DNA of 33,435 nucleotides from Clostridia bacterium. GTDB taxonomy: Bacteria > UBA6262 > WVXT01. Positions 9,576-31,898 of the stretch are shown here, piece after piece. The notes beneath the pieces were generated by a model. The model had not been told where the DNA came from. It searched no databases and worked only from the letters and a program-made list of their open reading frames with translations. The stretch is from NCBI GenBank assembly GCA_009619095.1, contig WJOT01000041.1:1-33435 (forward strand), in the 5' to 3' direction. Positions within the stretch are counted from its first letter, which is position 1. Every line of letters begins with the position of its first letter. A program made the position numbers and the translations under genes.

Positions 9576-9602
9576 TAATTTCCCTCCATTTAAAAGCACT
9601 TC

Positions 9603-9650
9603 GGGCGACCGCCCCGCTCAGGCGGGATAAACTGCGTGTCGCCCCTACGC
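9603..9650. repeat. REP-like hairpin repeat, family B (copy 1)
   Basis: GGGCGAC and GTCGCCC form an outer stem enclosing a second hairpin (CCCGC/GCGGG), followed by ATAAACTGC and ending in CTAC. The same layout and 30-odd shared positions occur at 31338-31383, and in reverse orientation at 31289-31330. Both direct-orientation copies are followed by GAACAAACTAT (9694 and 31389). It lies in the rmuC leader; a further small hairpin GGGC-ATAAA-GCCC follows at about 9666-9678. Confidence 0.75.
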
Positions 9651-9711
9651 GACCAAAACCTTTACGGGCATAAAGCCCTACACTACCAAGCAATGAACAA
9701 ACTATTTTTCT

Positions 9712-9740
9712 ATTATACCAAAATTAAGAACCTGAAACAA
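9712..9740 (-). promoter_or_regulatory. Sigma-70-type promoter for rmuC
   Basis: On the minus strand TTGTTT and TATAAT are spaced by 17 bp, and the -10 is extended (TGGTATAAT). It lies between the end of the alcohol dehydrogenase gene and rmuC, leaving a leader of about 130 nt that contains a family B hairpin. The -35 is a moderate match; the -10 is perfect. Confidence 0.6.
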
Positions 9741-9747
9741 GGAGAGT

Positions 9748-22038: not shown

Positions 22039-22072
22039 TTCTCTTCAACCTCTTCTTCCTGTTTTCGGTAGC

Positions 22073-22089
22073 CGCAACCTTAGGTTGCG
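22073..22089. repeat. Short intergenic hairpin CGCAACC-TTA-GGTTGCG
   Basis: A perfect 7 bp stem with a 3-base loop between lemA and the orphan nuclease gene, preceded by GGTAGC. Layout is similar to the GTAG-associated hairpins elsewhere in the window. On the minus strand no T run follows, so it is not an obvious terminator. Confidence 0.5.
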
Positions 22090-22095
22090 TTCCCC

Positions 22096-22662
22096 CTAAA
22101 ATTCAACCCGGGGGGCTTCAGCTTCTTCCTCTCCAACTTCGAAATAAGTTCGCTGCTCATCCAGATCTCTTTTTTTAGCAAAGAAGCGCCCAAAGACTTC
22201 TCTAATATGGGCATTAAACCCCTTGACCGCTCGATTATACCTCACCCTGGCCACAGCAATTCTATTTTCAGTCCCCGCCAGTTCGTCCATTAGCCTGATG
22301 AAGGTCTGATTGGCTTTCAAATCAGGATACCGCTCAACTATTACCAGAAGACGGCCTAAAGCACTGTCCAATTTTGTGGCTGCCTTAATCTTTGCCGGAA
22401 TTGTTTTTGCTCCAGCAAGTGCTGCGCGCGCATCGGCTATGTGAGTAAATACTTTTCTTTCATGTTTCATATATCCTTTAGCTGTAGCCACCAGGTTGGG
22501 AATTAATTCGCTTCTCCTCTTGAGCTGTGTATCAATCTGAGCCCAAGCCTCATTCGCCTCTTCATCCATTCTCACTACGCGATTAAGGCCAGAAATGTAC
22601 CAAGCAGCCCCCACAAAAATTAAAAAAACAAAAATAACCAGAAAAATCCATGCCTTTTTCAT
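22096..22662 (-). CDS. lemA: LemA family protein
   Basis: A 188-aa LemA-family membrane protein. An N-terminal membrane segment (about residues 4-24) is followed by 'EEANEAWAQIDTQLKRRSELIPNLVATAKGYMKHE', the LemA hallmark, then 'LGRLLVIVERYPDLKANQTFIRLMDELAGTENRIAVARVRYNRAVKGFNAHIREVF'. The extracytoplasmic part is helical. AGGAGGAGG precedes the ATG. LemA genes are often next to TPM-domain genes, as here, but in this genome a long palindromic repeat array separates them. Molecular function is not well established. Confidence 0.95.
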   Translation of the reverse strand: MKKAWIFLVIFVFLIFVGAAWYISGLNRVVRMDEEANEAWAQIDTQLKRRSELIPNLVATAKGYMKHERKVFTHIADARAALAGAKTIPAKIKAATKLDSALGRLLVIVERYPDLKANQTFIRLMDELAGTENRIAVARVRYNRAVKGFNAHIREVFGRFFAKKRDLDEQRTYFEVGEEEAEAPRVEF

Positions 22663-22713
22663 AATTTCCTCCTCCTTTTGTGAATCAGTAAGTGTTTTCC
22701 CTCACCAATCTGA

Positions 22714-22970
22714 AGAAAATAGTTTGTGAAGAACGTTCGGAATTTCAGCCAAAAAGCGAGAACAAGTGTTCCCCGAGGAAACACTTCCCGATTGAAAATC
22801 GGGATGCTTCACTCATTTGTTTCCGAGCAAAAATTTGTTCGACCCCCGCTCTGCGGGGGAAGTTTATTTTTGCGCCCTGCAGAGCCCGAAGTTTCCCAGC
22901 GGTAAAAAATTCCTCGCCGCTCGAAAAATCAACTCTTCCCTGTTTTTTTTCTGCCCCCCTTTAAAGAAAA
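22714..22970. repeat. Palindromic repeat array, unit 1 (divergent)
   Basis: The right half (about 22875-22970) is nearly identical to the equivalent part of unit 2, including the 37 bp spacer TCTTCCCTG...AAAGAAAA. The left half is diverged and carries extra hairpins (CCCGATT-GAA-AATCGGG, about 22788-22804). The apical hairpin here is CCCCCGC-TCT-GCGGGGG. No credible ORF is present, and the short track ORFs across it are not gene-like. Confidence 0.75.
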
Positions 22971-23178
22971 GTTGATTTTGAAGAGCATTGGAATTTTAGC
23001 GAGGAAACGAGGCTGACAATAACTCTTCCAAGCAGAATTTTGTTTGAGCCCCCGATAAATCGGGGGCGAGTTTAATTCTGTGCCCTGCAGAAGCCGAAGT
23101 TTCCCAGCGGTAAAAAATTCCTCGCCGCTCGAAAAATCAACTCTTCCCTGTTTTTTTTCTGCCCCCCTTTAAAGAAAA
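22971..23178. repeat. Palindromic repeat array, unit 2 (208 bp)
   Basis: A 171 bp imperfect palindrome beginning GTTGATTTT (22971) and ending AAAATCAAC (23141), with an apical hairpin CCCCCGAT-AA-ATCGGGGG, then a 37 bp spacer. Nearly identical to unit 3 and spaced from it by exactly 208 bp. Confidence 0.9.
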
Positions 23179-23347
23179 GTTGATTTTGAAGAGCATTGGA
23201 ATTTTAGCGAGGAAACGAGGCTGACAATAACTCTTCCAAGCAGAATTTTGTTTGAGCCCCGATTTATCGGGGCGAGTTTAATTCTGTGCCCTGCAGAAGC
23301 CGAAGTTTCCAAGCGGTAAAAAATTCCTCGCCGCTCGAAAAATCAAC
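23179..23347. repeat. Palindromic repeat array, unit 3 (169 bp palindrome)
   Basis: Same as unit 2 except that the apical stem is one pair shorter on each side (CCCCGAT-TT-ATCGGGG) and a few bases differ; the trailing spacer is missing. The array ends about 12 bp before the stop codon of the TPM-domain gene. Confidence 0.9.
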
Positions 23348-23359
23348 TTTTCTTACTTA

Positions 23360-24115
23360 TTACCATCTCCCGGTGGCACCTCCGCCGCCAGAGAGTCCTC
23401 CGCCAAATCCTCCAAATCCTCCTCCAAACCCTCCTCCTCCTCTACCCCAGAAGCCTCCTCCCATGAAAAAGAACGGCAAGAGGAAGAGCCTGCCCCCCAT
23501 AAAGAAGAGGATTAAGAATAAGTATAATAGATTCCCCAGAGCTCCCCTGCGCCGAGACCTCCCGGCAACAGCCACCTCATAATTCTCTTGAGGGAGAGAA
23601 CTTAGGGCAAGTAATTCCACTTCCTTTTCCCGGGCAATTAAATTGGCAAGAGTAGCCGTACCATTAAAAAGCCCTTCGCCGAACTCTCCTCTCCCGAAAC
23701 TGGGAGCAATCTTCTGACGAATAACCTCTCCAGCCATACCATCAGTAATGATACCCTCTAATCCATAACCCACTTCTATTCTAATCAGTCGTTCACCAAC
23801 ACTAACAAGGATTAACAGACCATTATCCTCACCCTTCTTCCCAATCCCCCACGCCTCAAAGAGGTCTACCGCATAACTTTCTATATCTCCTTCCGAAATA
23901 CTCTCCAGGGTCACTACAGCAATTTCAGAAGTCGTCTTTCTTTCCAGTTCAGTAACAAGATTTGTCAACCGGGCTACATCGCTGGATGAGAGAATGTGAG
24001 CAAAGTCATTAACGTATCCCACCGGCTTGGGAAAGGAAGCCTCCTTCCCCAAAGAAGGAGCCTGTAGAAGAAATAGTGTGATTAATATTACCGGCAGTAT
24101 CTTAATTCTTCTCAT
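23360..24115 (-). CDS. TPM domain protein (YgcG/Psb32 family), exported, glycine-rich C-terminus
   Basis: A 251-aa exported membrane protein. A signal peptide (about residues 1-23) leads to the TPM_phosphatase domain: 'PVGYVNDFAHILSSSDVARLTNLVTELERKTTSEIAVVTLESISEGDIESYAVDLFEAWGIGKKGEDNGLLILVSVGERLIRIEVGYGLEGIITD'. A membrane segment ('LLYLFLILFFMGGRLFLLPFFFM', near 198-220) and a Gly-rich tail (GGGGFGGGFGGFGGG...) follow, the usual layout of this family. Its ATG overlaps the upstream gene's stop as TAATG. It is a common partner of LemA; the function is poorly defined, with roles suggested in membrane-protein complex repair. Confidence 0.92.
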   Translation of the reverse strand: MRRIKILPVILITLFLLQAPSLGKEASFPKPVGYVNDFAHILSSSDVARLTNLVTELERKTTSEIAVVTLESISEGDIESYAVDLFEAWGIGKKGEDNGLLILVSVGERLIRIEVGYGLEGIITDGMAGEVIRQKIAPSFGRGEFGEGLFNGTATLANLIAREKEVELLALSSLPQENYEVAVAGRSRRRGALGNLLYLFLILFFMGGRLFLLPFFFMGGGFWGRGGGGFGGGFGGFGGGLSGGGGATGRW

Positions 24116-30395: not shown

Positions 30396-31268
30396 CTAAT
30401 AGATTACTTTATTCAGGGGATACTCTATTATCCCTTCAGCACCAGCGCGCTTCAGTTCCGGAAGAATCTTCTTTACCATTTCTTCTTTTAGGATTATCTC
30501 AAGGGCAAGCCAACCCGGAATAGTCAAAAGGGAAACTGTTGGCTTTTTGAGTGCAGGCAGAATCTTCATAAGTTTGGAAATGTCTTCCTTTCTCACGTTC
30601 ATCTTTAACCCCACCATGCCCTCTGCTGCCAGAGCTCCCTGTAAGAGAATAGCAATATTCTCAATCTTGTTCCTCTTCCAAGGATTCTGATAGGACCCCT
30701 TATTGGCAATGAAACGCGTTGTCGATTCTATAATCGTATCTATAGTTCTTAAATAATTTGCCTCCAGAGAAGAGCCGGTCTCGGTCAATTCCACAATAGC
30801 ATCAGCTAAAGTCCCTGCCTTTCCCTCGGTAGCTCCCCAGGAAAATTCCACATCTGCTTTTACTTTCTTCTTCTTCAAATAATCCTTAACTACGTTAACT
30901 AACTCAGTGGCTATCTTCTTTCCTTTCAGGTCTTTCACGGATCTAACTCGTGAATTGTTAGAAACAGCCAGGACCCACTTCACCGGACGGTACCCCGACT
31001 TGGAATATACAAGCTCACACACTTCTTTTACTTTTGCCTTGTTTTCTCTAATCCAGTCGTAGCCAGTGAGCCCTGCATCGAAAGTACCATCCTCAACATA
31101 TCTGGCCATCTCCTGAGCCCTTACCAGCATAACTTCCAATTCCGAGTCATCGCATGAGGGAAAATATGACCTCCCTCCTACATAAATACGTATGCCGGCT
31201 TTACGGAACAACTCCATAGTTGGCACCTGAAGGCTCCCTTTTGGTAAACCCAATTTTAATTTTGGCAT
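30396..31268 (-). CDS. hisG: ATP phosphoribosyltransferase, long form
   Basis: A 290-aa HisG, the first enzyme of histidine biosynthesis, joining ATP and PRPP. The periplasmic-binding-protein-like catalytic part starts '[22 protein letters not shown]' and contains '[10 protein letters not shown]' and '[15 protein letters not shown]'. The PRPP loop region is '[27 protein letters not shown]' (E-x-x-x-x-G-x-A-D-A-I). The ACT-like C-terminal regulatory domain (about 215-290, '[27 protein letters not shown]') makes it the long, hexameric, histidine-inhibited form that does not need HisZ. AAGGGAGGG precedes the ATG. No other his gene is in the window. Confidence 0.96.
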
Positions 31269-31286
31269 CTATCCCTCCCTTTCTGT

Positions 31287-31383
31287 GGGGGACGGACGCA
31301 GTTTATGCCGACCTTTCGGCGTGCCGTCCCTTCCTTTGGGCGACCATCCCGCTTGCACGGGATAAACTGCCTGTCGCCCCTAC
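31287..31383. repeat. Inverted pair of family B hairpins (REPIN-like)
   Basis: 31289-31330 has outer stem GGGACGG/CCGTCCC, GCAGTTTAT and inner hairpin GCCGA-CCTT-TCGGC. 31338-31383 has outer stem GGGCGAC/GTCGCCC, inner stem CCCG/CGGG and ATAAACTGC. The second is the same design in opposite orientation, so the two form a REPIN-like pair in the 138 bp gap between rimI and hisG. Another copy is at 9603-9650. Confidence 0.75.
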
Positions 31384-31406
31384 AGCGACGAACAAACTAT
31401 CTTTCA

Positions 31407-31898
31407 TTACAAATTTCTCTTTTCCATTACAATGGCGTCTTCTCCAGTATAAGCATAATAGCCTTCCTTGATTTTCGTCTTCCGGAAACCCCATTTCTCG
31501 TACAACCTCAGTCCCACCCTATTGGAAGTTCGAACTTCCAGGGTTGCTACTTTGGCTCCCAAATTTTTTGCCTTCTCCAAAAGAAATCTGAGAAACTCAC
31601 TCCCAAAGCCACGACTCCTATAGTCTGGATGTACGGCAAGATTGGTTATGTGCGCCTCGTGTTTAACCATCCAGAAACCACCATAAGCAATCATCCTGCT
31701 CTTTTTCTTTTCCTGAGAATTTTCTCTCATTACATAAAAGTGGGAAAAAGGTATTATCAACTCATGATAGAACATTGCCAGTGACCACGGTTCAGGAAAA
31801 GATACGCTTTCTATCTCCACCACCTCCTCAAGGTCGTTGTAATCCAATGGGAATATGGAAAATTTCAACTCTTTCTCAATCTTTCCTTCTCTTCCCAT
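31407..31898 (-). CDS. rimI: Ribosomal protein S18-alanine N-acetyltransferase (RimI-type GNAT)
   Basis: A 163-aa GNAT acetyltransferase. 'IFPLDYNDLEEVVEIESVSFPEPWSLAMFYHEL' is the typical RimI start. Acetyl-CoA binding motif A is 'AHITNLAVHPDYRSRGFGSEFLRFLLEKA' (the usual RxxGxG/A loop is present as RSRGFG), and 'ATLEVRTSNRVGLRLYEKWGF' is the RimI motif B. The C-terminus 'EGYYAYTGEDAIVMEK' also fits. Its start lies 34 bp inside the end of tsaB, so the genes are co-translated, the standard tsaE-tsaB-rimI order. Function as S18 acetylase is inferred from family and context. Confidence 0.9.
   Translation of the reverse strand: MGREGKIEKELKFSIFPLDYNDLEEVVEIESVSFPEPWSLAMFYHELIIPFSHFYVMRENSQEKKKSRMIAYGGFWMVKHEAHITNLAVHPDYRSRGFGSEFLRFLLEKAKNLGAKVATLEVRTSNRVGLRLYEKWGFRKTKIKEGYYAYTGEDAIVMEKRNL

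Follow-up and report, generated by a model that had tools for sequence, protein, structure and literature searches.

The stretch of DNA studied here (the window, 33,435 nt from a Clostridia bacterium whose 1.99-Mb assembly in 132 contigs we call G000) carries a TPM-domain gene and lemA, and between them lies an array of three long imperfect palindromes (Table 1). The earlier note had described two units with a 208-bp period and a diverged third, and these proved to be real: a repeat search gives direct repeats at 22855-23052 and 23063-23260 with 96% identity and a third, partial copy at 22855-22938 (92%; the right half of W3 against W1), and the outer arms of W2 (23172-23187 and 23339-23354) are complementary at 16 of 16 positions. 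The 37-bp spacer is repeated together with the 208-bp tandem unit. The apical stems were also read correctly, being CCCCCGC..GCGGGGG in W3, CCCCCGAT..ATCGGGGG in W1 and CCCCGAT..ATCGGGG in W2. The unit length of roughly 170 bp was too short, as the palindrome with full arms measures ~183 bp (23172-23354).

Table 1. Features of the array and its flanking genes; the minus strand is the mRNA-sense strand of the units, and G001 is a close relative.
Feature	Position	Strand	Evidence
lemA, downstream of the array by transcription	22096..22662	-	PF04011, E 9e-53
W3, oldest/diverged unit	22707..22941	-	covariance model match, E 1.2e-13
W1, full unit, apex CCCCCGATAAATCGGGGG	22960..23149	-	covariance model match, E 2.4e-37; direct repeat; alignment with W2 and G001
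37-bp spacer between the GTTGATTTT..AAAATCAAC cores of W1 and W2	23142..23178		sequence and direct repeat D1
W2, full unit, apex CCCCGATTTATCGGGG	23168..23355	-	covariance model match, E 1.1e-39; fold z -6.9
TPM-domain gene, upstream of the array by transcription	23360..24115	-	PF04536, E 2.6e-38

The proposed course of the palindrome from GTTGATTTT to AAAATCAAC holds for W1 and W2 but not for W3, in which the left arm is the family-type AAAATAGTTTGTGAAGAAC, the outer GTTGATTTT arm is missing and additional nested hairpins occur at ~22765-22815. As a result of this left arm and the additional hairpins, the outer arms of W3 do not pair as they do in W1 and W2, and its fold is weaker (z -3.3). 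Folding of both strands, a check put forward in the earlier note, showed that W2 (23172-23354) reaches -71.4 kcal/mol on the + strand against a shuffle mean of -43.0 (z -6.9) and a z of -5.8 on the - strand, a folding strength far beyond chance. Pairing is kept at the apices while their sequence changes, as had been claimed, but the covariation between W1 and W2 is best read as a single concerted change in W1. Differences between these two units are almost confined to the apex, where the W1 loop has gone from TTTA to TAAA and one C and one G have been added, one per side. Since TTTA is common to W2 and the G001 unit, and W1 is altered on both sides of the apex, one concerted change in one copy would account for the difference. 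The W1 apex change matches known products of template switching, a process known to homogenise arms and invert spacers (PMC8604942).

We compared the locus with other genomes, all of them fragmented assemblies, which include three further members of the genus (G001, 95-98% identical to G000, together with G002 and G003) and a sister-genus member (G004). In G004 (L195) the TPM-domain gene and lemA lie ~85 nt apart with no element between them, which confirms that the array splits two normally adjacent partners. The orthologous G001 site holds one unit and a remnant of a terminal repeat, and of the genomes compared only G000 has the 208-bp tandem duplication. With one unit in G001 and none in G004, the element would most simply have entered the TPM-lemA gap after the split from the sister genus.

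Relatives of the array units are found on other G000 contigs by BLAST, and the window units are a diverged subfamily of a more widespread element. The covariance-model search of the genome and its relatives that had been recommended was carried out with a model (R1) built from 33 copies (alignment A2), and reveals the element as a ~185-bp imperfect palindrome with about 40 full-length copies in four genomes of the genus; this total is a hand count of listed matches, the raw tallies of 21, 13, 36 and 45 including reverse-strand echoes. The model has no match in two sister-genus genomes (the six genomes searched are all those of the phylum in the collection), BLAST over 54 more distant genomes gave only a single 29-nt match, and a viral collection gave zero matches to the exact degenerate pattern of the element. 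The family consensus has the ends TTTAAAAGATAGTTTGT.../...ACAAACTATCTTTTAAA, which occur 38 times in G000 at <=3 mismatches compared with 4 times in a reversed control. As in MITEs, conserved terminal inverted repeats are present at multiple dispersed sites, and the element is short and has no protein of its own, the overlapping ORFs being mechanical and not common to copies. A different outer stem, again complementary, is found in the window units and in copy C39. Tandem duplicate aside, no near-identical recent donor/daughter pairs were seen.

Smaller hairpins are also associated with the family. Two further intergenic hairpin clusters in the window, at 9599-9747 and 31268-31407, end in the family terminal repeat (9694-9712 and 31389-31407) and are truncated relatives of the element joined to GGGCGACC-type hairpins. 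A hairpin cassette, AAGTGTTCC...GGGATGCTTCACTC, occupies one fixed position inside some copies (L009, L006, L209 and window 22765-22815), and at one orthologous copy it is cleanly present or absent between G002 and G000. On L050 (C6:63566) and L049 (C102:9441), 24-bp perfect hairpins of differing sequence lie at the same point of the terminal repeat, flanked by TTCA direct repeats.

Site occupancy changes between close relatives, which is a further property of MITEs. Where orthologous sites have flanks 95-98% identical, most of those bearing the element have as their counterpart in the relative a different palindrome, a shorter version or nothing, and often it is other hairpins that take its place. 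At C14:34009 the element is present in G000 and G002, with an unrelated hairpin in G001; the G002 orthologue carries a 216-bp hairpin cassette, absent from G000, with a clean junction. At C8:2257 a 400-bp form in G000 corresponds to a 47-bp form in G001 that retains both ends. When these sites were read for a target, no clean empty site was seen for the family and no duplication could be read, and the ends often had TTAA-like flanks which may be part of the repeat. Wholesale exchange of intergenic hairpins with the flanking genes aligned was observed at eight G000 loci (L006, L008, L009, L033, L044, L046, L050 and L052) compared with G001 contigs L220, L309, L260, L281, L227 and L234; the outer terminal repeats are sometimes shared, the interior alone differing. 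Misassembly is an unlikely source of exchanges whose interiors share no sequence, although every assembly concerned is fragmented. Separately, a 105-bp segment is cleanly inserted in G000 C61 (L026) at ~2619-2723 and absent from G001 (L280, L285); its ends, TCCCGCCTCTC..GAGAGGCGGGA, are inverted, its junctions show what appears to be an ATGAA direct repeat, and it looks like a different, ordinary MITE.

Across the 33 copies, 96.6% of cells are paired in a 44-pair structure, and two-sided changes are found at 26 pairs and 108 cells compared with shuffle means of 11 and 28, while in slid control structures the pairing drops to 33-59%. The secondary structure is conserved with real covariation, which is compatible with DNA or RNA; the covariation supports a fixed structure, and homogenisation of a palindrome yields the same pattern. 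Taking strand A as the window + orientation and strand B as its complement, A is the more stable in 31 of 33 copies with RNA parameters and in 32 of 33 with DNA parameters, where the copies are related and the trials not independent. The fold is not, then, favoured on the transcribed strand. GU exceptions outnumber AC exceptions by 47 to 26 (in 25 vs 16 pairs) in favour of the non-mRNA strand, again in copies that are not independent, and as a test for RNA this asymmetry is suggestive only. Terminator-like sites were found on strand A in 17/33 copies and on strand B in 3/33, counts which follow our scan rule, a stricter rule giving 0 on both strands; in the window array they lie on the + strand, mid-element.

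The orientation of the element relative to genes is close to fixed. With orthologues and nearby fragments merged there are 36 distinct loci, and strand B is the mRNA sense at 34 of these, strand A at 1, with 1 not scorable (34:1; two-sided sign test on 35 loci, ~2e-9). The sole A-oriented case is a degenerate half copy, and its G001 orthologue is B-oriented. In the first copy set all 25 copies scored between co-directional genes have B as the mRNA-sense strand; genes were called simply as the longest ORFs, and the one divergent call (C44) is co-directional on direct reading. Copies typically start no more than some tens of nucleotides from the upstream stop codon. G001 is an extremely co-directional genome, with ~96% of coding length per contig (L210-L329) on one strand and positive GC3 skew there, and 93% of neighbouring gene pairs are co-directional. 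It is because of this arrangement that the directions of replication and transcription are inseparable here, as are fork- or transcription-directed insertion and the purging of a polar orientation. Given that terminator-like sites are mostly on A, copies in the A orientation could be polar and lost. Other palindrome families in these genomes also lean to one side, in small numbers and with some of them nested in the element (10:2, 11:0, 8:1 and 6:0, with two others at 4:2 and 1:2). To our knowledge, descriptions of short palindromic elements do not usually include a strict strand lock, and ordinary MITEs are not strand-locked.

We consider it reasonably probable that the array marks one of the sites occupied by a non-autonomous palindromic mobile element confined to this genus, MITE-like and of ERIC/YPAL/BOX size (~185 bp). 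Dispersal between different genes, terminal inverted repeats, the lack of a protein of its own, polymorphism of sites and the orientation lock are all observed, and it is from this distribution that we infer mobility. A mobile palindrome amplified in tandem had been one of two options in the earlier note, and the dispersed copies, their inverted repeats, the presence/absence at orthologous sites and the private duplication speak for it; against it, no transposase, autonomous parent or target-site duplication can be tied to the family, and the lock needs an extra cause. A copy would have inserted between TPM and lemA in the lineage of the genus, the complement of the window + strand being mRNA sense, and palindrome and spacer (208 bp) would then have been tandemly duplicated in G000. 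The arms may have been kept complementary by re-homogenisation of imperfect hairpins, through polymerase template switching between arms and inversion of the apex, and a mobilising factor that probably recognises the folded window-plus strand would help to keep them so. The one-way orientation could stem from replication-fork- or transcription-directed insertion, or from the loss of opposite-orientation copies, which would put terminator-like hairpins into the operon mRNA. These data can be explained without any host function; a function exerted through the mRNA is the weaker case, since transcription yields the less structured strand and, in close relatives, unrelated hairpins stand in place of the element.

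The other option of the earlier note, a structured RNA, gains from the covariation across copies and loses from the lesser stability of the mRNA-sense strand (31/33) and from the concerted nature of the apical change. In its most specific form, a hairpin transcribed with the operon would act as a putative functional intercistronic RNA element, controlling processing, stability or translation of the downstream gene, with selection keeping both pairing and orientation. Covariation well above shuffles and slid controls would be expected of such an element, as would the position of nearly all copies between co-directional genes, near the upstream stop codon and in one orientation. We nevertheless think it unlikely, as it is the less stable strand that is transcribed, with GU exceptions rarer on it than AC exceptions (26 vs 47), unrelated hairpins or nothing replace the element in relatives that are 95-98% identical, and 93% of all neighbouring genes are co-directional anyway. 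Nor did any described Rfam family match: at the gathering score only two tRNAs were found in the window, and at a relaxed E-value there was one weak isrK match (22.6 bits vs a cut-off of 50).

Turning to the enzyme that might mobilise the element, Y1 transposases are present in G000 and G002 and are the only transposases among the families searched. IS4/IS5 and IS1380 transposases were absent from the genomes searched, and neither an autonomous relative nor a transposase sharing these ends was found (IS4/IS5, IS1380, reverse transcriptase and Y1 flanks, in incomplete genomes). Spread driven by a reverse transcriptase was rejected, there being no RVT_1 in six genomes. The element might be single-stranded DNA moved by a Y1 HUH transposase of IS200/IS605 or RAYT type, REP/REPIN-like and of unusual size, with the lock arising from insertion into the lagging-strand template. 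IS200/IS605 elements have been reported to follow replication direction (PMC5371812), as have Tn7 and several IS families (PMC5371812; PMC6006769). Such an origin would suit a genome whose genes are ~96% co-directional, and other GTAG-containing hairpin families in the same genomes also lean one way. It strikes us as improbable all the same, in that the family lacks the GTAG/CGTC foot of REPs and measures 185 rather than 20-40 bp, the element flanks none of the ten Y1 loci examined, no Y1 gene is detectable in the element-bearing G001 and G003, and the strand that would be expected on the lagging-strand template is the one that folds less well.

A putative antisense or trans-acting non-coding RNA transcribed from the window + strand, with the fold as the selected feature, would account for the better folding of that strand in 31/33 copies and for its retaining GU pairs (47) more frequently than AC mismatches (26). 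We judge this very improbable given that the array region has no promoter-like site, that copies differ in length, with parts lost and nested hairpins gained, and that terminator-like sites fall mid-element on the very strand concerned. A simple local tandem duplication of a chance palindrome, or a repeat assembly artefact, would fit a W1/W2 duplication that is not seen in G001 and the fragmented state of all genomes involved, but is scarcely credible and is refuted as a full account by the ~40 full-length copies dispersed over four assemblies and by the unit at the same site in the orthologous G001 contig. The earlier note had tied that outcome to a lack of both further copies and covariation, and both are found.

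Read as a non-autonomous mobile palindrome, the element would represent a new family within a known general class (MITE/ERIC-like); its strand lock is uncommon and its exchange of content rapid. It resembles the ERIC, YPAL, NEMIS and Correia-type MITEs in its ~100-200 bp class, its whole-length imperfect palindrome and its intergenic, transcribed context, often touching stop codons. Unlike these, it is oriented 34:1 to flanking genes, folds better on the non-mRNA strand, has interchangeable apical and nested hairpins, and no target duplication was seen; we claim no sequence relation. Orientation-dependent effects on operons have been described for ERIC (PMC3049150). With REP/REPIN sequences and their RAYT (Y1) enzymes it shares intergenic palindromes downstream of genes and Y1 transposases in two of the four genomes. 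REPs, however, are 20-40 bp palindromes with a GTAG or CGTC tag (PMC3733652), whereas the element is ~185 bp, has no such tag in its consensus and is absent from the flanks of the ten Y1 loci. Pneumococcal BOX elements are likewise modular, stem-forming interspersed repeats of variable length with cassette-like inner parts, but are over-represented between convergent genes (PMC3049150). The present element sits between co-directional genes in a single orientation.

Integron attC sites are imperfect palindromes that come right after a stop codon, have an orientation fixed relative to the gene, fold better on the non-coding strand and have a variable apex. The element shares each of these features, but its arms have the opposite polarity (GTT in the 5' arm) and those of its flanking genes that were identified are ordinary chromosomal genes rather than cassettes. 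An attC origin was rejected, as this end polarity is wrong and no IntI integrase was above cut-off in the element's genomes; all TIGR02249 (integron integrase) matches were below cut-off, likewise in 14 control genomes.

The genus might, more tentatively, possess a broader system in which several intergenic palindrome families insert with a strand fixed by reference to transcription or replication, and in which close relatives exchange them at shared intercistronic sites; though doubtful, this would imply a fork- or transcription-coupled insertion of hairpins unmatched by the transposases found. A family with a 34:1 orientation, a better-folding non-mRNA strand and changing sites makes it testable whether fork-directed insertion or selection against polarity alone is at work. 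Covariation in palindromic repeats is not in itself a sign of RNA function, a caution that arises because the apex change in the window altered both arms at once between near-identical copies.

Two minor observations concern the ends and surroundings of the element. The terminal repeat GAAAGATAGTTTGCG (copies L181 and L184) resembles that of the insect transposon piggyBac, also a TTAA-target element; the likeness is probably a coincidence, and the bacterial IS1380 relatives of piggyBac were absent. Just downstream of lemA, at window 22060-22117, there is a short REP-like palindrome, GGTAGCCGCAACCTTAGGTTGCG, and a similar one is found in L049.
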